From: Nitrospirota bacterium
GTDB taxonomy: Bacteria > Nitrospirota > Thermodesulfovibrionia > Thermodesulfovibrionales > UBA6898
NCBI GenBank assembly: GCA_016214855.1
Contig: JACRMT010000021.1
Coordinates: 1-32,748 of the forward strand
Length of the DNA stretch: 32,748 nt
Reading direction: 5' to 3'
Both the position numbers and the translations under genes were made by a program. Under the pieces are notes generated by a model. The model was not told the origin of the DNA. It saw nothing but the letters and a program-made list of their open reading frames with translations, and did not search any database. Below, one piece after another: positions 4,374 through 31,581 of the stretch (positions are counted from its first letter, which is position 1; each line of letters begins with the position of its first letter).

Positions 4374-5132
4374 CTATTTCTTTTTTGCGGCTGTCTTCTT
4401 GACAACTTTTTTTGCGGCAGCTTTTTTCGGTGCCGCTGTCTTCTTTGCAACGGTTTTCTTGACGACTTTCTTGGCTGCAGCTTTCTTCGGCGCCGCCTTT
4501 TTCGCTACGGTTTTCTTCACAACTGCCTTCTTTACGGTTTTCTTGGCAACAGCCTTTTTAGCCGGTGCAGTCTTCTTGGGAGCAGCTTTTTTTACGGTTT
4601 TTTTCATTTTTTTGTCCTTTCCTTTTGTCGCTGTTTTTTTCGTGTTAGTCTTAACTTCTGCCTTAGCCTGTTTTATGGTCTTGCTTCTTTTTACAGCTTT
4701 TCTGAATGTTACTTCTGCCTCGAATGTCTTCTTTGTCAAAGCCTTTGTTTTTTCAGCCTGGACCATTGGCGGATGGTCTTTTTTGACTTCAACATGATAC
4801 TGCTTTTTTACTGCGAGTTCGCCGGAGCTCTCGAGAACGCCGAGAATATTGTCCTCCTGAATAAGCGTTATCTCCTCCCCGTCCAGCACAATATTTTTTG
4901 TCATATAATCAATGAACATGACACGCTGACCCGGTTTCAGCACGGTAGGGACGAATAGCTTCTTTTCTTTCTTGCCCTTTTCCTGTTCGAATTTCCCGGG
5001 ACCGACAGCCTCGACAATGCCCTCGGTCGGTTTTGTCCTGGCAGCGTCAGGGATGATTATGCCGCCGCTGGTTCTCTCTTCAGGTTCGCTTCTCTTGATC
5101 AGAACCCAGTCATGAAGTGGTCTAAAAGCCAT
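4374..5132 (-). CDS. GroES-domain protein with long histone-H1-like Lys/Ala-rich tail
   Basis: A protein of 252 aa. Residues 1 to about 102 are a GroES co-chaperonin domain: FRPLHDWVLIKRSE, the mobile-loop region SGGIIIP at about 22-28, VGPGKF, and the C-terminal strand ILGVLE. Ordinary GroES stops near residue 97. Here ~150 residues follow: a linker, then from about residue 165 an almost pure Lys/Ala/Thr/Val/Pro tail of the bacterial H1-like type. The start at 5132 is chosen because AGGAGGT is well placed for it (5141-5147, minus strand). No groEL is adjacent. The GroES part has insertions (EQEKGKKEKKLFVPTV at about 50-63) and may not cap a chaperonin. DNA or polyanion binding by the tail is inference. 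The domain calls are firm, the function is not. Confidence 0.85.
   Translation of the reverse strand: MAFRPLHDWVLIKRSEPEERTSGGIIIPDAARTKPTEGIVEAVGPGKFEQEKGKKEKKLFVPTVLKPGQRVMFIDYMTKNIVLDGEEITLIQEDNILGVLESSGELAVKKQYHVEVKKDHPPMVQAEKTKALTKKTFEAEVTFRKAVKRSKTIKQAKAEVKTNTKKTATKGKDKKMKKTVKKAAPKKTAPAKKAVAKKTVKKAVVKKTVAKKAAPKKAAAKKVVKKTVAKKTAAPKKAAAKKVVKKTAAKKK
4392..4496 (-). repeat. 60-nt-period coding repeat in the Lys/Ala tail
   Basis: The 15-residue unit AAPKKAAAKKVVKKT is encoded twice, at 4452-4496 and 4392-4436. The encoded amino acids are identical while the codons differ (for example GCC GCA versus GCT GCC). The tail has therefore grown by internal duplication, and the unit has since been held at protein level. 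Confidence 0.75.
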
Positions 5133-5165
5133 GTACGATAACCTCCTGCAAAATGGTACTGCTTC

Positions 5166-5199
5166 ATTATACTGCAAGAACCCTTTGACTGACCAGTCA
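5166..5199 (-). promoter_or_regulatory. Promoter with palindromic operator for the GroES-fusion gene
   Basis: On the minus strand a perfect -10 TATAAT lies at 5166-5171, about 33 nt upstream of the start codon. The -35 position (5189-5194) has a poor match and is covered by the inverted repeat TGACT-GACC-AGTCA (5186-5199). Palindromes of this form are typical TetR/AcrR-family operators. A repressor bound here would block RNA polymerase. No TetR gene is in the window. Confidence 0.5.
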
Positions 5200-5350: not shown

Positions 5351-6166
5351 TCAGTTTTCCTTTATGCCGTATTTCTGCTGAAGTTCAGTATTGCCGGCAA
5401 TATTCCTGATATCTCCCGTCTCAATGTTCAGCTCAAAATAGAAGCCTTTCGGCGTGACGCCGTCCGTTGCCGTATAGGTGACAAGGTATGTCTTCTCATC
5501 TGCCTTTCTTGCGATCCAGCCTATGGCCTTGAGTTTATCGGCGTTCTCTTTTGTCCACTTATTGACCAGAGCATCAACGGTTGCAGAACGATCGAGTATG
5601 TGTGATTTTTTTACCGACTCGATTGCCCAGTCAGGAGTTTTCTCAGCGTTCATATCAGGCGCGTCGCTTTTTCTCTCGGGCGACGACTGCTGTGCTGTTG
5701 GCTGCACGGGAGTGGATTGCGATAGCGGAACAGATACGCTTTTTTCAGGCACTGCCATCTGATAGGGTGAGGAGACGGGCGCCACTGCAGGCCGGGGATC
5801 GCTCTTATTTGACCAGAAAAAAAGGCCGGCGACAATAACGATAACAAAGGCAGCTCCCGCGCCAACAGCGATCTTCATGACCGGGGAATTCCCTATGCCG
5901 CTGTCTGCCCCTGCGGATATCTGCCTGAAGACAGTGTATGCATCATTGATCTTCCTGACCCGTTCATCCAGCCTGCCGCGGGAGCGCGCGTCATGAGCAT
6001 CTGCCGGTGTTTTCCACACCTTGATCAGATAGTTATACGTCTGCTCAACCGACTGTGCAGGCGCATCCGCTTTTAATCCGAGCACCTCATAATAGGCATA
6101 TCCGCAGGCACATTTATTCAGTGCACTTTCGTTGGTCTGTCTGCATTGAGGGCATTTCCAAGCCAT
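5351..6166 (-). CDS. Zinc-ribbon / degenerate J-domain membrane protein
   Basis: A protein of 271 aa. Residues 1-22 hold a small zinc ribbon (C5, C8, C19, C21). Residues ~25-82 resemble a DnaJ J-domain (YYEVLGLKADAP... RVRKINDAYTVF), but the catalytic HPD loop is absent; WKTPADAHD stands in its place, so it is unlikely to stimulate an Hsp70. One TM helix spans ~97-118, followed by a Pro/Ser-rich linker and a C-terminal domain of ~95 residues (about 177-271) that ends near ELQQKYGIKEN. The start at 6166 is fixed by AAGGAG just upstream (minus strand). Topology suggests the zinc ribbon and J-like part are inside and the C-terminal domain outside. The 218 bp between this gene and the GroES-fusion start hold only that gene's promoter. 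Exact role unknown. Confidence 0.75.
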   Translation of the reverse strand: MAWKCPQCRQTNESALNKCACGYAYYEVLGLKADAPAQSVEQTYNYLIKVWKTPADAHDARSRGRLDERVRKINDAYTVFRQISAGADSGIGNSPVMKIAVGAGAAFVIVIVAGLFFWSNKSDPRPAVAPVSSPYQMAVPEKSVSVPLSQSTPVQPTAQQSSPERKSDAPDMNAEKTPDWAIESVKKSHILDRSATVDALVNKWTKENADKLKAIGWIARKADEKTYLVTYTATDGVTPKGFYFELNIETGDIRNIAGNTELQQKYGIKEN

Positions 6167-6352
6167 GGTCTGTCTCCTTCTGAAATCATTGTAGCAGACA
6201 GCCGGGAATGCTTCAAATTTTAGAGAATCGCGGTATAATGAAAACATTGGATGTACGATGCATGCGGTGATTTTTGGAGCAGCAGAGCTGCAATAAGATC
6301 GTAACTGGCAGATTTTCATATTTTCTTCATGATAAGGGTATAGGATGAAACC

Positions 6353-22135: not shown

Positions 22136-22599
22136 AGTGCCCCTTCTGCGAGAGCCAGGAAGACAAGGTCATTGACTCGCGTGTGAGCAAGGAGGGCAAT
22201 GCCATCCGCCGCAGGCGTGAATGCCTGAAGTGCGGCAAGCGTTTTACCTCTTATGAACGGGTTGAAGAACTGGCCCCCATGGTCATCAAGAAGGACGGAC
22301 GGCGGGAGTCCTTCAATGCAGACAAGATCAGAAGCGGACTGCTCATTGCCTGCAAGAAAAGGCCTATTGAGACGGACAAGATCGACGAGATCGTTGACAA
22401 TATCGAGAAAAAGCTTATCGGTCTCGGCGAAAAGGAGATACCGAGTTCCTCCATCGGCGAAGAGATCATGGCAGCGCTCAAGGAACTCGACAAGGTCGCT
22501 TATGTGCGGTTTGCCTCTGTGTACCGGCAGTTCAAGGATATCAATGAGCTCATGGACGAGGTGAAGACCCTCTTCGATCATCACAAAGATAAGAAGTAA
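22132..22599 (+). CDS. nrdR: Transcriptional repressor NrdR
   Basis: A protein of 155 aa. N-terminal zinc ribbon with C3, C6, C31, C34 (CPFCES ... CLKCGKRFTSYER), followed by an ATP-cone domain (VIKKDGRRESFNADKIRSGL). It represses ribonucleotide reductase genes according to ATP/dATP. Full length. No NrdR box was seen in the window, so its targets lie elsewhere. Stop and the next ATG share one base (TAATG). Confidence 0.95.
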   Translation: MKCPFCESQEDKVIDSRVSKEGNAIRRRRECLKCGKRFTSYERVEELAPMVIKKDGRRESFNADKIRSGLLIACKKRPIETDKIDEIVDNIEKKLIGLGEKEIPSSSIGEEIMAALKELDKVAYVRFASVYRQFKDINELMDEVKTLFDHHKDKK

Positions 22600-23924
22600 T
22601 GCGCACCCCTCTTCTTCTGGTAATTGAGGACGACGAAACCATAGCTCTGAGCCTCAGGACTTTCTTCGAGAGCAAAGGATGCAGTGTTCTCTGCGCCTCG
22701 ACATGCAGGGAGGGTCTTGACATCTGCCTCAGGGAGATTCCCGATACCGTTATTCTCGATCTTCGTCTGCCTGACGGAAGCGGCATTGATGTCCTTAAGG
22801 AGATCAAGAAGGACTACCCGGAAATATCCGTGATCGTTATGACCGGGTATGGCGAGATAGACGAAGCGGTCAGTGCCATGAAACTGGGGGCTGAATATTA
22901 TTTTCAGAAGCCGATATCCCTGGATGCGCTCTCAGTTTTTGTTGAAAAGAGCATCGGCATCAAGAAGATGAAGCAGGATGCGGTCTTTTTCAAAAAGACC
23001 GATCATCCGATCATCGGGAGAAGCCACCATATCCAGAGCATAATCCATATGATCAACCTCCTTGCCGCAAATCCCTCGACCACTGCACTTATCCTCGGAG
23101 AGACCGGCACCGGCAAGGAGATCATTGCCCGCAATATCCACGCGCTCAGCAGCAGGGCTGACCGGCCTTTTGTTGATATCAATTGTGCCGCGATCCCTGA
23201 ACCTATCCTTGAGAGTGAGCTCTTCGGGTATGAGGCCGGCGCCTTTACTGACGCAAAAAAGACGAAAATAGGACTTATCGAACTGGCTGACAGGGGTACG
23301 CTTTTTCTTGATGAGATCGGGGACATGCCGCTCAGCGCCCAGGCCAAGATACTGCGGGTCACCGAGACCAGGACCTTTAAGCGCCTGGGTGGAACGCGGG
23401 ACATTGCCGCAGATGTCCGGATCGTAGCTGCAACGAACAAGGACCTTGCTGATCGGGTCAGGAAAGGACTTTTCAGGGAAGACCTTTACTACCGCCTGAA
23501 TATCATGCCGCTGCAGGTTCTGCCCTTGCGGAAGAGGTCTGATGACATCCCGCTTATTGCCGAGTTCCTGCTGAAAGAGATAAAGAAGACTCTCGCCAGG
23601 AAGGAGATCGGAATCTTGACAGAGGCGGCCAAGGAGAAGCTCTGCAGCTATTCCTGGCCCGGCAATGTGAGAGAACTGAAAAATGTAATTGAAAGAGCTG
23701 CAATTCTCTGCCCGGAGGGTGATATTATGCCGCGGCATATCATTATCCCTGAAGGGACGACCGGAGATCCTGACCGCAGGCCGCTGCCGCTCAGTGAAAT
23801 GGAGCAGGAGCATATCAGGCATGTATTGCGCATGGCGAACGGCAACAGGACAAAGGCTGCTGACATGCTGGATATAGCCAGGTCAACCCTGAGCGAAAAG
23901 ATAAAAAAGTACAGCCTCCAGTGA
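22599..23924 (+). CDS. Sigma-54-dependent response regulator (NtrC family)
   Basis: A protein of 441 aa. Receiver domain 1-120: acidic D11/D12, phospho-acceptor D54 (VILDLRLPDG), K104. AAA+ domain ~137-370: Walker A GETGTGKE (167-174), Walker B FLDEIGD (236-242). The sigma-54 contact loop reads GAFTDA (214-219) rather than GAFTGA, a variant found in some active members. Fis-type HTH at the end (NRTKAADMLDIARSTLSEKIKKY). It should activate sigma-54 promoters when phosphorylated; its kinase is not adjacent. The promoter-like site at 24075 before the chemosensory genes is the obvious candidate target, by position only. Confidence 0.93.
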   Translation: MRTPLLLVIEDDETIALSLRTFFESKGCSVLCASTCREGLDICLREIPDTVILDLRLPDGSGIDVLKEIKKDYPEISVIVMTGYGEIDEAVSAMKLGAEYYFQKPISLDALSVFVEKSIGIKKMKQDAVFFKKTDHPIIGRSHHIQSIIHMINLLAANPSTTALILGETGTGKEIIARNIHALSSRADRPFVDINCAAIPEPILESELFGYEAGAFTDAKKTKIGLIELADRGTLFLDEIGDMPLSAQAKILRVTETRTFKRLGGTRDIAADVRIVAATNKDLADRVRKGLFREDLYYRLNIMPLQVLPLRKRSDDIPLIAEFLLKEIKKTLARKEIGILTEAAKEKLCSYSWPGNVRELKNVIERAAILCPEGDIMPRHIIIPEGTTGDPDRRPLPLSEMEQEHIRHVLRMANGNRTKAADMLDIARSTLSEKIKKYSLQ

Positions 23925-23972
23925 CCGAGAATCGGACGGCCTGTCCGGATTCCGGTCATTCCTGATTTTTTA
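23923..23972 (+). terminator. Strong intrinsic terminator after the sigma-54 regulator
   Basis: A 15-nt arm GACCGAGAATCGGAC (from 23923) pairs with GTCCGGATTCCGGTC (ending 23957) with two single-base bulges and a short GGCCT loop. It is followed shortly by a T-rich run, ATTTTTTATATT. It starts at the stop codon and should end the rpiB-to-regulator transcript, isolating it from the chemosensory cluster. Confidence 0.8.
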
Positions 23973-24074
23973 TATTCCCCAGTCCTCATCCCGAAACAGT
24001 CAATCACAAGAAATAAAGCTTTTAAAACAACTTATTGCATGATTCGTTGTGCTGACATGTATGCCTAAAAGAGA

Positions 24075-24090
24075 TGGCACAGGTCTTGAT
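24075..24090 (+). promoter_or_regulatory. Sigma-54-like promoter upstream of the chemosensory cluster
   Basis: TGGCAC (24075-24080), 5-nt gap, TTGAT (24086-24090). The -24 element matches the consensus TGGCAC exactly, and the -12 element differs from TTGC[AT] at one base. Spacing is correct. It lies 40 nt before the first response-regulator gene, which has GGGAGG as its RBS, and directly after the terminator of a sigma-54 activator gene. Confidence 0.5.
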
Positions 24091-24129
24091 ATATGGGTTC
24101 GATAGTTTATTGCGGGAGGATAACGAAAT

Positions 24130-24513
24130 ATGAAAAAGATATTGATTGTTGATGATGAACCAACAATACTGATGACCTTGTCGCACGTGCTCAGCAACCC
24201 TGACACTACGGTTATCACCAGCAGCAGGATGGAAGAGGCTGAAGAGGCCCTTTCACGGTATACCTTTGATCTGGTGATAGTAGATATACGGTTAAGCGGC
24301 ATGGAAGGCATGGAAGGGCTTGAACTGCTCAGTTATGTGAAACAGATCAGCCCGACGACCCAGGTGATCATCATGACAGCCTATGGTTCCGAGGAGATGC
24401 GGGAAGAGGCCGGAAAGAGAGGGGCTTTTCACTACTATGAAAAACCGATCGACATACCTCATCTTCTCGATAAGGTCCGATCGCTTAACATACCGGTTCT
24501 CACAAAGGGGTAA
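24130..24513 (+). CDS. Single-domain response regulator
   Basis: A protein of 127 aa, only a receiver domain: acidic D8/D9, phospho-acceptor D52 (VIVDIRLSG), T83 and K105 (YYEKPIDIPHL). The alpha4-beta5 face differs from CheY, so it need not bind flagellar switch proteins. It has its own RBS (GGGAGGA), and is the first gene of the cluster behind the sigma-54-like promoter. Confidence 0.88.
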   Translation: MKKILIVDDEPTILMTLSHVLSNPDTTVITSSRMEEAEEALSRYTFDLVIVDIRLSGMEGMEGLELLSYVKQISPTTQVIIMTAYGSEEMREEAGKRGAFHYYEKPIDIPHLLDKVRSLNIPVLTKG

Positions 24514-24543
24514 TGACATGTATTTAATCAGAAGGAGGGGGTT

Positions 24544-24981
24544 ATGACCGTATTGCAGAAGATTCTCATTGTGGACGATTCCCAGCTCATCCATAACATG
24601 TACAGACTTGTCATGAACAGGTATCAGGGGTGCAAGATCCTTGATGCCATGAACGGGCTTGAGGCCCTTGATATACTTTCCAAAGAAAGCGACTTTGATA
24701 TTATCCTGCTGGATATCAATATGCCGGTAATGAACGGGATCCAGTTCATGGAGAAACTGTATAGCGAGAATCTCTACCGCCATATTTCGATCATTGTCAT
24801 AAGCACTGAAGGCAGGGAGGAAGATACGTTAAGGGCGTTGAAATTGGGAGCTGTCGGATATGTGGTAAAGCCTTTCAAACCGCATCTTCTGCATGAGCTT
24901 ATCGAAAAAGTAATGGGCAAAAAAAAGGCAAAGTCGCCTTTTCCGGAGACAGACCGCAACAAAGAGTCTGCGGCCAAGTAA
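24544..24981 (+). CDS. CheY-like single-domain response regulator
   Basis: A protein of 145 aa. Receiver with D11/D12, phospho-acceptor D57 (IILLDINMPVMNG), S89 (VISTEGREED) and K110 (VVKPFKP). A basic tail KKKAKSPFPETDRNKES extends past the domain. RBS GGAGGGGG immediately upstream. It is likely phosphorylated by the CheA encoded 3 kb downstream. Confidence 0.88.
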   Translation: MTVLQKILIVDDSQLIHNMYRLVMNRYQGCKILDAMNGLEALDILSKESDFDIILLDINMPVMNGIQFMEKLYSENLYRHISIIVISTEGREEDTLRALKLGAVGYVVKPFKPHLLHELIEKVMGKKKAKSPFPETDRNKESAAK

Positions 24982-25030
24982 TCCTATCTTATGACTGCGC
25001 ATCCGGGGAAGAGGTTGCAATAGGACAGAC

Positions 25031-25954
25031 ATGCACAACCATGCCGGTATAATTAGGGAACAGATCATAACGGAAGACGAATACAGGCTTTTCACCGAGC
25101 TGCTCGAACAGCGTTTTGGCAAGATGCTGAAAAGCGGGAAAATGCTCTCCTTTCATATGAAGGTTTCGCACAGACTTGCGGTGCTCGGCATGGGAACCTA
25201 CCGTGAATATTATGACTATCTTGTATCTGATCCTGAGGGTATGGAAGCAGCTGTTCTGATGTCGCACCTGGCGAACCATGAAAGCTGTTTTTTCAGGGAC
25301 GAGGAGCAGTTCAGGCTCCTTTCCACTCTTCTTAAAGAGGCAGCCGGATCATATCAGTTGAAGCACAAGAAAAGCATCAGAATACTTTCTGCTGCGTCAG
25401 CCACCGGAGAAGAGGCATACACCCTGAGTTCAGCAGTACGCAGCTGCGGCATCTGCCGGCCGGCCTGGGACGTGAAGATCATCGGCATTGATATTGCCCC
25501 AAAGGCAATTGTTTGGGCTAAGGAGGGCAGATACGGCAGGGACTCTTTTGGCACTGAAGTCAGCGACAAGAATTTCAGAACGGAAAATTTCACTGCCGAC
25601 GGGGAACGGTATATGGTAAAACCGTGCCTTAGGGAAAATGTCGAATTCAGGTTCGGCAATCTTGTCGATGCAAAATCTCTTGCCGGACTCGGCACCATGG
25701 ACATGATCTTCTGTCGGCATATTTTGGGATCCATGACCGACAGCGGCATTCAGCGAGCGGTCAGGAATCTCTTCAGCTTGCTCTCCGATGAAGGATATCT
25801 GTTCATCGGCACTTCCGAAAGTATTATCCAGCATACGAACCTGTTTGTGCCGATGCGTACCGGCGCCATGACCGTTTACAGGAAGAATATATGCAGGGAA
25901 CCGAGACTGGCCGGGATGTGCTCGATGGACGTTCTGCAGCAGGAGGCGAGATGA
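25031..25954 (+). CDS. cheR: CheR-type chemoreceptor methyltransferase
   Basis: A protein of 307 aa. N-terminal helical domain, then the receptor-methylase core: HESCFFRDEEQF (usual N-E-T-x-F-F-R), SAM-site IRILSAASATGEEAYTLS, and GIDIAPKAIVWAKEGRYG. The later MDMIFCRHILGSM stands for the usual IFCRNVL. The asparagine of the classical NETYFFR is replaced by histidine (H83), and the SAASATGEE loop lacks the usual Cys. These changes are moderate and it still looks catalytic. It methylates glutamates of MCPs such as those at 30010 and 31764. Stop overlaps the next ATG by 4 nt. Confidence 0.88.
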   Translation: MHNHAGIIREQIITEDEYRLFTELLEQRFGKMLKSGKMLSFHMKVSHRLAVLGMGTYREYYDYLVSDPEGMEAAVLMSHLANHESCFFRDEEQFRLLSTLLKEAAGSYQLKHKKSIRILSAASATGEEAYTLSSAVRSCGICRPAWDVKIIGIDIAPKAIVWAKEGRYGRDSFGTEVSDKNFRTENFTADGERYMVKPCLRENVEFRFGNLVDAKSLAGLGTMDMIFCRHILGSMTDSGIQRAVRNLFSLLSDEGYLFIGTSESIIQHTNLFVPMRTGAMTVYRKNICREPRLAGMCSMDVLQQEAR

Positions 25955-27090
25955 CGATGCTTAATGAGCCGCATGAGATATGGAAGCTATTACCGAAAAA
26001 GGATTGGTGGGAGCGGCAGGAGTATATCAATAAGCTGATTTCGTATCCTTTGGTTGAATATTTGCCCGATCTGGAGCAGGGCATCAGGAATGATGATGAT
26101 GCAGATATCAGGAATGCAGCCATGGAGGTTTACCGGGTCCTTGGCGTGAAGGGTTTCCCCTCGCTTGAGGGTCTGCTGCAGGACCATAACCATGAAGTAA
26201 GACTTTTTGCCGTGAACATTCTCTGCAGTATTGCTGACCGCGGAACGTTTCCGCTCCTGGCCGAGGCCATGAATGATTCAGATGTGAATGTAAGAATAGC
26301 TACTGCTGAAGCCCTCGGCAAGGTGAGAGATGAGCGTGCCATACCGCTGTTGGAGAGTGCACTTGATGATGAGCCATGGGTTGCCATGGCTGCAATTGAT
26401 GCACTGGGTCAGATCGGCGGGGATGATGCGCTCAGACTTCTGTACCGCTGTCTCGAAATGCCCGGGGTTCAGGAGCTCGCCATAGAAGCGATCGAGAGGG
26501 CCGGGAAGCAGGAATCCATTAAATATCTTGCAGACTGCCTGCATAAAGTGGAGCTCTTTGAACATGCCCTTAAGGCTATTCAGGAGATCTCGGAACGGGA
26601 AAATATCAGACCGGACCCGGAGTTTTTTATGCACCACATAGCGATGCTGCTGGCCATGCTCCAATCTCCGGATCCAAAGACCCGCAAAGCGGCAGGCATG
26701 GCGATAAGCTGCTCCCGCAGTATAGGTGCGCAGCAATGCATGATAGAACTGGTAAAAGATGATGAGCTGCAGGAGTATGCCGTTGATGCACTGCTTCAGG
26801 CCGGGAAAAGGGCTGTATGCGGCATTGTTGATGCAATTCGGAATTTTACCGGTCCCCACAGGCAGATCCTTGCCAAGACCCTCAGTATGCTCGGCGAGTA
26901 TGACGCACTGCTTCAATTCGCAGAAGACAGTGATGCAGAGGTTCGTACCGAGGTGGCGCTTGCTCTCGGCCGTGTTGCGTTGCCAAGGGCGCTCCAGATA
27001 CTCGAGTCCATGCTGCATGATCCTGACGAGGAGGTCCGCATGGCTGCCAGAAGGAGCCTGGACAGCAGGGACAAGGCAGTGGAGCCATGA
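25951..27090 (+). CDS. HEAT-repeat protein in chemosensory operon
   Basis: A protein of 379 aa made largely of HEAT/PBS-lyase-type repeats of ~30 residues (for example RNAAMEVYRVLGVKGFPSLEG, VRIATAEALGKVRDERAIPLLES, VAMAAIDALGQIGGDDALRLL). It forms an all-helical scaffold for protein contact; no catalytic motif is seen. The ATG at 25951 is chosen because it overlaps the cheR stop (ATGA) and has GGAGGCGAG upstream; longer frames run back into cheR. Similar HEAT proteins occur next to CheR or CheA in some other bacteria. A role as docking platform for the che proteins is inference. Confidence 0.82.
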   Translation: MTMLNEPHEIWKLLPKKDWWERQEYINKLISYPLVEYLPDLEQGIRNDDDADIRNAAMEVYRVLGVKGFPSLEGLLQDHNHEVRLFAVNILCSIADRGTFPLLAEAMNDSDVNVRIATAEALGKVRDERAIPLLESALDDEPWVAMAAIDALGQIGGDDALRLLYRCLEMPGVQELAIEAIERAGKQESIKYLADCLHKVELFEHALKAIQEISERENIRPDPEFFMHHIAMLLAMLQSPDPKTRKAAGMAISCSRSIGAQQCMIELVKDDELQEYAVDALLQAGKRAVCGIVDAIRNFTGPHRQILAKTLSMLGEYDALLQFAEDSDAEVRTEVALALGRVALPRALQILESMLHDPDEEVRMAARRSLDSRDKAVEP

Positions 27091-27437
27091 GTTTCAGAGC
27101 ATCCGTATCCGGTGAGTCCGGAAGGCTGGCGCTGGGCGGCAGCCTCACGATCGAGAATGCTGCCAAGATCAGGGAAGAGCTGCTCGGGACTTTCCGGGAG
27201 TCTGAGGGGGTTATCCTTGAGCTTATGGGAGATGTTGTTGCTGACGTTTCTTTTATGCAGATACTCTGCTCGGCGAAGAAAACAGCAGTGATTGAGAAGA
27301 AGCGGTTTGAAGTTGACTGGTCTGCTGCTCCGGGAGTCAGAAGTTCCATGGCTGCTGCCGGATACAACGGTGATGAACTATGTTTTCAAGATGCTGGTGA
27401 AGACCGGAGATCGGTCAACGGAGGTCCGAATGAGTAA
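27087..27437 (+). CDS. STAS-domain protein (anti-sigma antagonist type)
   Basis: A protein of 116 aa. STAS fold: GRLALGGSLTIENAAKIREELL, VILELMGDVVADVSFMQILCSAKK. The serine in VADVSF is at the usual phosphorylation position. STAS proteins in chemosensory operons are thought to relay CheA output or be regulated by a Ser kinase; no such kinase is in view. It overlaps the HEAT gene by 4 nt, and the CheY gene starts 8 nt before its end. Confidence 0.8.
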   Translation: MSFRASVSGESGRLALGGSLTIENAAKIREELLGTFRESEGVILELMGDVVADVSFMQILCSAKKTAVIEKKRFEVDWSAAPGVRSSMAAAGYNGDELCFQDAGEDRRSVNGGPNE

Positions 27438-27795
27438 GAAGATCATGACGGTTGATGATTCGGCCAGTGTACGTCAGCTGGTGAGCTTTACCCTGAAACA
27501 GCATGGCTACGAGGTTTCCGAGGCGGTCAATGGCTCAGAGGCCCTGAAAAAACTCAAACAGGGAAAGATAGACCTGCTGATCACGGACATTAATATGCCG
27601 GAGATGGACGGCATCAGCCTTATCAAGATGGTAAGGGACGACCCTTCATACAAATTTATTCCGATCATCATACTCACTACAGAGTCTCAGACCGGGAAAA
27701 AGGAAGAGGCAAAGGCTGCCGGGGCCACGGGGTGGATCATCAAGCCGTTCCGGCCTGATCAGCTCGTCTCGGCCATAAGAAAGGTGATGGGATGA
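27430..27795 (+). CDS. cheY: Chemotaxis response regulator CheY
   Basis: A protein of 121 aa. D9/D10, phospho-acceptor D53 (LLITDINMPEMDG), T83-type Thr in IILTTESQTGKKEEAKAAGATGWIIKPF and the KPF lysine are in place. This is the closest to classical CheY of the receivers here. ATG 27430 is preceded by GGAGGTCCGA. It overlaps STAS by 8 nt and CheA by 4 nt, so it is a cognate partner of CheA. Confidence 0.93.
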   Translation: MSKKIMTVDDSASVRQLVSFTLKQHGYEVSEAVNGSEALKKLKQGKIDLLITDINMPEMDGISLIKMVRDDPSYKFIPIIILTTESQTGKKEEAKAAGATGWIIKPFRPDQLVSAIRKVMG

Positions 27796-29909
27796 GCGAC
27801 GAATTTGCCGAGATCAGGGAAGCCTTCAAAGTCGAGGCATCCGAGATACTTACAGCGCTTGAAGCATCACTCCTTGATCTTGAGAAAGACCCTGACAATA
27901 TGGAGATGGTCTCATCCATATTCAGGTCGTTTCATACGCTTAAGGGATCAGGCGGCATGTGCGGTTTTGACGATATTTCGGCATTCACGCATCAGATTGA
28001 GACCGTTTACGACCTTGTCAGGAACTGGAAGATAGAAGCGGACAAGTCCCTCTTCGACCTCACCCTGTCTGCATGCGACCATATACGTGACATGATGAAC
28101 GTTGACCAGCTCAGCAGAGAGGCAGTTGACAATCGGACTGCGGATATCCTCGCAATGTTCAGAAAGTTTATCCCTGAGGAGAGAAAGGCGCCGAAGATCC
28201 TGAAGCAGGCTGGTCTTGCCGAAGAGATATTCGGCGAAGAAGAGCAAACGAAAAAAACCGTTTACCGGATCCGTTTCCGGCCTTCCCGGGACATTTTTCT
28301 GCGTGGTACAAATCCGCTTCTGCTGATCGATGAACTCAGGACAATGGGTGACTGCAGGGTCATAGCGCATACCCAAAGCATACCGGCGCTGGACCTGCTG
28401 GATGCGGAAGCATGTTACACCTCCTGGGACATCATTTTGACAACAACAAAGGGACTGAATGACATTCAGGATGTATTTATATTTATTCAGGATGAGACAG
28501 AACTGTCAATAGACATCATTTATGACGGGGATGCAGATCTTGATGCTGAAGACTTTCGTAAACTGGGCGAGATCCTTATCGAGAAACAGGACATCAGGAA
28601 AGAGAACCTCGAACAGATACTGAGGGAAAGAAAGCGGCTTGGGGAGCTGCTGGTTGAAGAGGGGCTGGTCCAGGAGGTCAGCATACAGGCTGCGCTGGCC
28701 GAGCAGGAGCAGGTGAAGCAGGTTCGGGAGGACCGGCAGAAGATCGAAGCCACAATGAATATAAGGGTAGCTTCCCGGAAGCTCGATAAATTGATCAATC
28801 TTGTGGGCGAGCTGGTCACTGTTCAGGCGCGTCTGAGCCAGACCTCTTTACGCTACGACGATCCTGAGCTGCTCCTGATCGCGGAAGAGGTCGAACGCCT
28901 GATAGAGGAACTCAGGGACACTTCCATGAACATACGGATGCTGCCGATGGGTACCACCTTCGGCAAGTTCAAGAGACTTGTCCGCGATCTTACGGCAGAG
29001 CTTGGCAAAGAGGCTGAGCTGTTCACTGAAGGAGCTGAGACAGAACTCGACAAGACGGTTATCGAGAAGCTGAACGATCCCCTGGTCCATATCATCAGGA
29101 ACTGTGTCGACCACGGCATAGAACTGCCTGATCTGCGCAGACAGCAGGGCAAACCCAGAAAAGGCAGCATTCGCCTTTCTGCTGTCCATTCCGGAGCCTA
29201 TGTGGTTATTCAGATCCAGGATGACGGCGCCGGTCTTAATAAGACGGCCATACATACAAAGGCGCTGCAAAAAGGTCTGATCCAGCCGGACGATGAGCTG
29301 AGCGAACGCGAGATATTTAATCTGATCCTTGCGCCGGGATTCACGACCTCAGGCAGTGTTACCAGCGTCTCGGGCCGCGGCGTCGGCATGGATGTGGTGA
29401 AGAAGGCTGTTGATAATCTCAGGGGCACGATCAAGATAGAGAGCCTGCCTGGGGAAGGGACCACCATAACCCTGAGCCTGCCTCTGACCCTTGCGATTAT
29501 CGAGGGCCTTCTGGTGAAGGTCGGGACCGAAACGTTCGTGATGCCGCTCTCGATCGTGGAGGAATGCATCGAACTGACCGGCCAGGCCATTAAGGAAGGC
29601 CACGGCAGAAACCTCGTTAACGTACGCAGCCAGATAGTCCCCTATATCCGTCTTCGGGAACAGTTCGCGATCAGCGGCAATGAGCCGGCTATCCAGCAGG
29701 TCGTGATCGCAAATACCGAAGGAAGGCGCGTGGGATTTGCTGTGGACAGCGTGATCGGTGAACACCAGACCGTGATCAAGTCGCTTGGCAAGTTCTACCG
29801 TGATGTACGGGGAATCTCTGGTGCGACGATCCTCGGAGACGGTTCCGTGGCCCTGATCCTCGATATGCCGCAGCTGATCCAGATGGTCGAAACAGAGGAA
29901 AACGCATGA
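27792..29909 (+). CDS. cheA: Chemotaxis histidine kinase CheA
   Basis: A protein of 705 aa. Hpt domain 1-130 with phospho-acceptor H48 (SFHTLKGSGG). A P2-like region spans 155-245. Residues ~257-308 contain two LGE[IL]L[IV]E-type modules resembling the N-terminal domain of type II secretion ATPase GspE. Dimerisation helices start at about 325 (ASRKLDKLINLVGELVTVQ). The ATPase domain has N-box RNCVDHGIE (N437), G1 DDGAG (477-481) and G2 GRGVGMD (528-534). The CheW-like domain is ~565-700. All catalytic motifs are intact. It sits between cheY and the 35-aa ORF with 4-nt overlaps. Confidence 0.95.
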   Translation: MSDEFAEIREAFKVEASEILTALEASLLDLEKDPDNMEMVSSIFRSFHTLKGSGGMCGFDDISAFTHQIETVYDLVRNWKIEADKSLFDLTLSACDHIRDMMNVDQLSREAVDNRTADILAMFRKFIPEERKAPKILKQAGLAEEIFGEEEQTKKTVYRIRFRPSRDIFLRGTNPLLLIDELRTMGDCRVIAHTQSIPALDLLDAEACYTSWDIILTTTKGLNDIQDVFIFIQDETELSIDIIYDGDADLDAEDFRKLGEILIEKQDIRKENLEQILRERKRLGELLVEEGLVQEVSIQAALAEQEQVKQVREDRQKIEATMNIRVASRKLDKLINLVGELVTVQARLSQTSLRYDDPELLLIAEEVERLIEELRDTSMNIRMLPMGTTFGKFKRLVRDLTAELGKEAELFTEGAETELDKTVIEKLNDPLVHIIRNCVDHGIELPDLRRQQGKPRKGSIRLSAVHSGAYVVIQIQDDGAGLNKTAIHTKALQKGLIQPDDELSEREIFNLILAPGFTTSGSVTSVSGRGVGMDVVKKAVDNLRGTIKIESLPGEGTTITLSLPLTLAIIEGLLVKVGTETFVMPLSIVEECIELTGQAIKEGHGRNLVNVRSQIVPYIRLREQFAISGNEPAIQQVVIANTEGRRVGFAVDSVIGEHQTVIKSLGKFYRDVRGISGATILGDGSVALILDMPQLIQMVETEENA

Positions 29910-30013
29910 AGATGACCCAGGCCCTCCTGTCTCTGCCTGATAACAATGAAGCTGACATCTCTGCAATGGTATCAGAAAGATATCTGAGACAGCGCAGAAG
30001 GGAGAAGACATGA
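29906..30013 (+). CDS. 35-aa ORF bridging cheA and the chemoreceptor gene
   Basis: ATG 29906 overlaps the cheA stop (ATGA) and the frame ends in TGA 30011-30013, overlapping the receptor's ATG 30010 (ATGA). The product, [20 protein letters not shown] then [15 protein letters not shown], is a short acidic half followed by a basic amphipathic helix. Double 4-nt overlap in a cluster where most junctions are of this type argues for a true translationally coupled gene. Its role may be only to carry ribosomes to the receptor gene. Confidence 0.5.
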
Positions 30014-31581
30014 AATTGACTATTTCTCAGAAACTCGGATCGGTAATGGGTGTCCTGCTCCTGCTGATGATCAGCATGGGTCTGTTCTTTTTCTTCTCGA
30101 CAGGCAAGGTGCAGCAGGCAGTGGCGCAGAATCAGGAACTGCGTAAAACGAACGAACTGATGACAGACCGGGTGATCGACCATCTGAAGTGGATGGACGG
30201 CATCTCCACAGGGGTGTTTATCCAGGGCAGGGAATTTACCGGCAAGCTCGATCCAAACGAGTGCAACCTCGGCAAATGGATGAAGACGTTCAAACCCTAT
30301 TCTGACGAAGTGGGACAGCCGTTCTCTGCTCTTGATGCGCCGCATCGCAAGCTGCATAGCACGGCTGAAAAGATCATTGCCGCATATAAAGCAGGAGACC
30401 GGTCCGGGGCCACAGCAATATTCACGGAGGAGACGATCCCTGCGGTCAACGAAGTTCAGTCACATCTCAGGCAGATCAAGGAGATACTTCATAAAGACGA
30501 GGCAAAGTCGCTCGAACAGCTCACCGTGATCCAGTCCAATGAGAAGAAGGTTTCGATCTTCCTGACCGTGCTGGGTATCCTGCTTGGCAGTTTTCTGTCC
30601 CTTATTATTACAAGGAACCTGCTGAATCTCCTTGGCGGAGAGCCTGCATACATAGCCGAGATCGCCGAGCGGATATCCTCAGGTGACCTCACCATGAAGC
30701 TGAGCTCCGGAAGGGCGCAGGATACCGGCATCTTTGCGTCAATGAAGCATATGGTAGAACAGTTGAAGGGCATTGTCGAGGATGTAAAATCAGCCGCCTC
30801 CAATGTTGCCGCCGGAAGCCGGGAGATGAGCCAGAACTCACAGCAGATGTCGCAGGGGGCCTCTGAACAGGCAAGCTCTGTAGAGGAGGTATCATCCTCA
30901 ATGGAAGAGATGGCCTCGAATATCCGTCAGAACGCAGGCAATGCGCAGCAGACCGAGAAGATCGCGGTCAAGTCGGTCGCGGATGCTGCAGAGAGCACCA
31001 GGGCTGTGATGGATGCGGTCATGGCAATGAAACAGATCGCCGAGAAGATATCGATCATAGAAGAGATAGCGCGGCAGACAAACCTGCTTGCGCTGAATGC
31101 TGCAATAGAGGCAGCCCGTGCAGGAGAGCACGGCAAGGGCTTTGCCGTGGTTGCCTCGGAGGTGAGGAAGCTGGCAGAGCGGAGCCAGACAGCCGCGGTC
31201 GAGATCAGTGAGCTGTCGGTCTCAAGCATGGATGTTGGCGAGCGGGCCTGCGATATGCTGGCAAAGCTGGTTCCTGACATACAGAAGACCGCGGAACTGG
31301 TGCAGGAGATCAATGTTGCCAGCGCTGAGCAAAACAGCAGTGCAGAGCAGATCAACAAGGCGATACAGCGGCTTGATCATGTTGTACAGCAGAATGCCGG
31401 TGCAGCAGAGGAGATGTCATCCACAGCAGAGGAACTGTCGGCCCAGGCTGAGCATCTGCAGAGCGCAGTGGAGTTTTTTCGTATTGCTGAATCCGATTAC
31501 AGCCGGAGGCGGCAGCTCGCAGCTGATGCACAAAGCGCAGTGCGGCAGGGAGCGGCGCTGCCTTTGCAATATAGCGCATGA
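30010..31581 (+). CDS. Methyl-accepting chemotaxis protein with periplasmic CZB-like zinc motif
   Basis: A protein of 523 aa. TM1 ~12-30, periplasmic domain ~31-179, TM2 ~180-201, HAMP ~202-255, then the long signalling coiled coil. The hairpin tip is [20 protein letters not shown]. In the periplasmic part, H58..W61, C85 in CNLGKW, and H112/H116 in APHRKLHS reproduce the chemoreceptor zinc-binding (CZB) pattern H-xx-W ... C-xx-GxW ... H-xxx-H. CZB domains are usually cytoplasmic and C-terminal. Zn or redox/hypochlorite sensing is inference. The start codon overlaps the 35-aa ORF, with GGAGAAG upstream. Confidence 0.9.

Follow-up and report, generated by a model that had tools for sequence, protein, structure and literature searches.

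The window, that is the whole stretch of 32,748 nt analysed here, carries a minus-strand gene for a 252-aa protein in which a GroES co-chaperonin domain is joined to a Lys/Ala-rich, histone-H1-like C-terminal tail, and this domain belongs to a second, Trp9-type GroES that is a separate, well-supported clade scattered through the phylum. The reading frame (ATG at 5132, stop at 4374, GGAGG upstream) has three parts: residues 1-100 are the Cpn10/GroES domain, residues 101-170 a linker and the last 82 residues (171-252) a Lys/Ala tail. The net charge is -1 in the domain and +46 in residues 101-252. The features of the gene and its upstream region are as follows.

4374..5132, minus strand: CDS of the second (Trp9-type) GroES co-chaperonin with a Lys/Ala-rich C-terminal tail (252 aa; Pfam, orthologs)
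4833..5132, minus strand: GroES/Cpn10 domain, residues 1-100, with the invariant Trp9 (Pfam, AlphaFold2, Foldseek)
5031..5084, minus strand: mobile loop, residues 17-34 (PEERTSGGIIIPDAARTK), with the G-I-I-I-P GroEL-binding motif kept (alignments A1 and A2)
4947..4997, minus strand: roof hairpin, residues 46-62, lengthened and Lys/Glu-rich (alignment with canonical GroES domains)
4623..4832, minus strand: linker, residues 101-170, mostly predicted disordered (alignment, AlphaFold2)
4758..4784, minus strand: linker motif KKDHPPMVQ, residues 117-125, with Pro121 invariant in alignment A1 (alignment, linker survey)
4377..4622, minus strand: histone-H1-like Lys/Ala tail, residues 171-252 (composition)
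4452..4496, minus strand: 15-residue repeat, copy 1, residues 213-227, AAPKKAAAKKVVKKT
4392..4436, minus strand: 15-residue repeat, copy 2, residues 233-247, AAPKKAAAKKVVKKT
5142..5149, minus strand: ribosome-binding site GCAGGAGG (sequence and genus alignment)
5166..5195, minus strand: sigma70-like promoter, TGGTCA-18-TATAAT (TATAAT conserved in the genus)

A sequence-only reading of this DNA had proposed the fusion of a GroES domain to an H1-like tail, and we confirmed it as a single intact CDS. The roughly 150 extra residues had been described as ending in an H1-like tail; the last ~82 are indeed H1-like, but the ~70 before them turned out to form a linker of their own, which carries a conserved motif. 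A frameshift or chimera was ruled out, since the same frame and tail recur in independent genomes of the genus, where the orthologs share 61-84% identity across the entire protein.

The Pfam Cpn10 model (PF00166) spans residues 3-99 (E=3e-22; 78.8 bits vs. a gathering cut-off of 21.1), and the NCBIfam GroES models all fell below their cut-offs, the best reaching 83.2 bits vs. 120. From a 60-row alignment that combined window and locus proteins, AlphaFold2 confidently predicted residues 1-100 to adopt a GroES fold (pLDDT mostly 80-94); past about residue 130 the chain was modelled as disordered, with a pLDDT of about 50 in the tail. When the model was compared with the PDB by Foldseek, all top matches were Cpn10/GroES structures (TM up to 0.86 by target, for 5opx). 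The GGIIIP motif of the mobile loop is kept across the clade, as G24 and P28 are invariant and I27 is found in at least 90% of 60 members. The protein thus resembles GroES/Cpn10 (PF00166) in its full domain, its fold and its GroEL-binding mobile-loop motif, and the case for its identity as a GroES lid is strong. It differs from canonical GroES by the Trp9 clade, the lengthened roof hairpin, a solitary position with no groEL alongside, and a basic extension of 35-170 residues in some lineages. The roof hairpin is common to tailed and untailed members of the second GroES type.

The top PDB sequence matches were Cpn23 and Cpn20 of entry 7ekq, titled CrClpP-S2c, which would fit a lid that caps a different ring, e.g. 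ClpP, like chloroplast Cpn20/Cpn23 in the Chlamydomonas ClpP structure. One neighbourhood points the same way: in genome G011 an untailed second GroES gene is followed directly by a ClpS-like ORF (L027, 1501-2113; by eye). We regard a ClpP lid as very improbable, however, as the 7ekq chains are themselves GroES domains, so that the match is hardly informative on the partner, and the ClpS neighbour was seen only once.

Three Cpn10 genes are present in the source genome (3.3 Mb, completeness 100%, contamination 0.25%), namely the window gene, a canonical groES on contig C14 and a divergent orphan on contig C10. The canonical groES lies immediately upstream of the genome's sole groEL. No groEL was found in the window, in agreement with the earlier remark that none stands beside the tailed gene, which accordingly lacks the groES-groEL adjacency that is typical, although not strict, for GroES. 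A search for a separate groESL operon had been advised; its presence on C14 makes the window gene an extra paralog, and together with the C10 orphan excludes that it is the only groES of the genome. As the mobile loop retains GGIIIP, the domain has a GroES fold and the genome holds only one GroEL, a lid for GroEL is the likeliest core function of the tailed protein.

The canonical proteins of this lineage (C14 of the source genome, G000, L006:2275-2583; several relatives, L032-L037) are 85-87 aa long and have no roof hairpin; in families f2, f5 and f11 the canonical GroES retains it. The third GroES-like protein (G000 C10, L007:2936-3328, minus strand) is divergent, with 130 aa and a central insertion, and its gene sits between argB-like and rmuC-like genes (by eye), with no groEL.

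A perfect CIRCE element precedes the canonical groES-groEL operon, and none was found in the window within 3 mismatches. The promoter of the window gene is sigma70-like, and its TATAAT is kept in five genus members. The suggestion of a stress-controlled DNA-compaction protein finds no support in these results. A near-palindrome, TGACTGGTCAGTCA, at about 5182-5198 overlaps the -35 region; its core CTGGYCAG is present in L009 and L010 and absent from L011 and L012.

The distribution of the second GroES was surveyed in relatives and in 295 sampled genomes of the phylum. Judged on bit scores and sequences, it is present in about 58 of these genomes, in about 25 of them tailed and in 33 untailed. 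Its hallmarks are the invariant Trp9, mostly within PL[HQN]DW, and the lengthened Lys/Glu-rich roof hairpin. In a tree of 78 domains the Trp9 clade and canonical GroES were separated with 100/100 support. In a scan of named genomes the matches listed were mostly canonical alphaproteobacterial GroES; the named records among them that have the second type (L039, L040 and L042) are Nitrospirae or Nitrospiria, so that the phylum of the window is probably Nitrospirota. It had been proposed to map the taxonomy of GroES proteins with Lys/Ala tails; basic-tailed proteins recur in five families of the phylum (f1, f2, f5, f6 and f23), and we found no literature report of a tailed GroES in this phylum. 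Untailed members, of about 104 aa, occur in f7, f24, f26, f27 and f31-f36, and in one f1 genome (G011, L027). On the tree the tail state requires two or three changes, and because the branch uniting all tailed lineages is weakly supported (81/77), the tree accommodates one gain followed by losses as well as two gains. The gene is absent from the near-complete relatives G001, G008 and G012, and is therefore dispensable.

The tail of the window protein has the features of H1-like tails, i.e. Lys/Ala(/Pro) repeats, strong positive charge and predicted disorder. Its 82 residues comprise 36 K, 21 A, 11 V, 7 T and 4 P, with neither His nor Cys. The duplicated 15-residue unit noted earlier is real: the copies at residues 213-227 and 233-247 are identical as protein, and in 500 residue shuffles the longest repeat averaged 5.7 residues and never exceeded 10. 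A genome-wide fondness for such tails was excluded, since a survey for KK-xx-KK-xx-KK patterns in the genome otherwise returned only peptides of ~26-57 aa and short runs in unrelated proteins. The tiny Lys/Ala-rich ORFs (C5:90866-90931, ~28 aa; C12:148453-148488, ~26 aa; C8:8071-8100, ~57 aa; for example MAAAKKPAAKKAATKKAAPKKAAAKKKK) are possible H1-like mini-proteins.

Among 32 tailed proteins the tails span 35-170 residues and vary in sequence, and the net charge of the extension is positive in every one (+4 to +47; K/R make up 28-57% of the last 40 residues). The tails of genus g3 are short and weakly charged (+4 to +8). A linker motif centred on Pro121, with variants such as KKDHPPMVQ, KKDGPVAIREK and KGPSALQKK, was found in 17 of the 32 vs. 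about 2 in shuffles, a descriptive comparison, as these very sequences had served to define the motif. In the close pairs L011/L012 and L132/L133 the dN/dS was 0.29-0.36 for the tail vs. 0.06-0.10 for the domain. The closest pairs differ by 18 silent and 24 replacement changes and by 10 silent and 9 replacement changes, and per site the replacement changes are slower than the silent ones. In more distant pairs the tail dN/dS was about 0.1, which is only partly meaningful given that shuffled-codon tail controls gave a mean omega of 0.22-0.33; NG86 estimates in such low-complexity sequence are in part an alignment effect. As a proof of selection dN/dS alone is weakened by this control. It had also been argued that the silent codon differences between the repeat copies reveal selection. 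The codons do differ at 8 of 15 positions, all synonymously, which speaks for selection, but less strongly than had been argued: the closest pairs indicate a constraint that is moderate, not strong, and the NG86 values are in part due to alignment. In our reading, the sequences suggest moderate constraint on charge and composition of the tail, with its length free to vary.

These data also bear on a simpler explanation, in which the tail is an appendage under loose constraint and prone to repeats, charged, soluble and disordered, with a length driven by slippage and no specific ligand, and the protein is simply a second GroES. The rapid change in tail length and sequence, the higher dN/dS of the tail than of the domain in the close pairs, and the absence of the tail in the same-family member L027, as in all other untailed lineages, agree with such an appendage. 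It explains less readily why a positive net charge is kept throughout the tailed proteins, why replacement changes per site still lag behind silent ones, why the repeat copies diverged synonymously and why the linker motif recurs, and we consider it doubtful, yet a serious alternative.

GroES tolerates C-terminal additions. The explanation we put forward, with about even confidence, is that the window protein would serve the single GroEL as an alternative, heptameric lid, with seven tails tethering the chaperonin to nucleic acid. Seven copies would form the usual GroES ring, which would cap the sole GroEL of the genome via the kept mobile-loop motif, with a disordered linker and tail projected from each subunit on the exterior of the dome. 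Linker and tail would bring a charge of about +46 per subunit and about +320 per ring, and such polyvalent tails could hold nucleic acid non-specifically, be it the DNA of the nucleoid or RNA and polysomes. Some of the GroEL machines would then work tethered, and the canonical, heat-shock-controlled GroES would serve the free pool. The use of GroEL by the tailed GroES is suggested by the motif and the structural model; the heptamer, the outward tails and the tethering are likewise inferences. The earlier idea of bringing chaperonin to a polyanion may in this form be retained, as it would fit the recurrence of tails and the kept GroEL-binding motif in the sequences, but its stress-control component is unsupported.

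Nucleic-acid binding by the tail is proposed from its composition and by analogy with other bacterial proteins. H1-like tails are needed for efficient DNA binding by HbhA and HupB (PMC10665949), and in AlgP and PhaF such tails have been connected with DNA and with granules (PMC9239181). Like these, the window protein has a disordered C-terminal tail of AKKA/KPAA type on an unrelated head domain; unlike them, its head is a co-chaperonin, and its DNA binding would follow from the analogy. A precedent for the architecture is H. pylori HspA, whose C-terminal extension binds nickel and provides a second binding function. In SAXS models of HspA seven tails protrude from the ring, and the extension has been called nearly unique to H. 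pylori (PMC5116745). Both would combine a GroES ring, here presumed, with an added C-terminal extension. HspA is, however, the essential GroES of its organism, with a short, His/Cys-rich, nickel-binding extension, whereas the window protein is an extra paralog with a Lys/Ala-rich extension, and residues 171-252 show no HspA-type His/Cys signature.

A ring-shaped nucleoid protein acting off the chaperonin, in which the heptamer is no more than a scaffold for many H1-like tails that bridge or compact DNA, would suit the strongly H1-like composition, the lack of an adjoining groEL and the position outside the CIRCE regulon. There is also a precedent within the chaperonin family, as M. tuberculosis GroEL1 was reported to be associated with nucleoids (PMC5904260); GroEL1 is likewise a chaperonin-family paralog, but it is a GroEL with a His-rich tail. 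A pure scaffold would have no need of the GroEL-binding motif that is kept clade-wide, the same domain is retained in untailed members, and the genome already has six HU-family matches, which makes a nucleoid ring unlikely. AlgP, which has an H1-like tail of similar charge, is found on polyphosphate granules (PMC9239181). That the basic tails here likewise bind polyphosphate, or some other granule, is hardly credible, since neither the PPK1 nor the PPK2 family had a match in this 100%-complete genome.

Returning to the tethered lid, it may not describe the clade as a whole. The untailed lineages (f24, f26, f27, f31-f36 and one same-family member) and the weak charge of the g3 tails argue that nucleic-acid binding is not a function of the entire clade, and, as untailed members exist, the ancestral job need not involve nucleic acid. 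We tentatively suggest a bacterial clade in which a second, non-heat-shock GroES lid would create free and nucleoid- or polysome-bound chaperonin pools on one GroEL. If this is true, a GroES lid can serve to place the chaperonin in the cell. GroES is usually regarded as an invariant lid, and a phylum-level second GroES with a recurrent H1-like tail would depart from that view; the natural tailed and untailed orthologs are well suited to direct comparison.

The gene neighbourhood was dropped as a clue to function, because neighbours recur only within genus-level groups and locus comparison found none conserved beyond the genus level. In four genus members the tailed GroES gene has upstream of it the gene that lies at 5351-6169 (minus strand) in the window; the product of this upstream gene has a zinc ribbon, a J-like region, apparently without an HPD motif (by eye), and one membrane segment, and gave no Pfam match at 0.001. 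Further along the window, at 22599-31581, response-regulator, CheR-like, HEAT-repeat, CheA-like and methyl-accepting genes follow in series (mostly by eye) and apparently form a chemosensory cluster.
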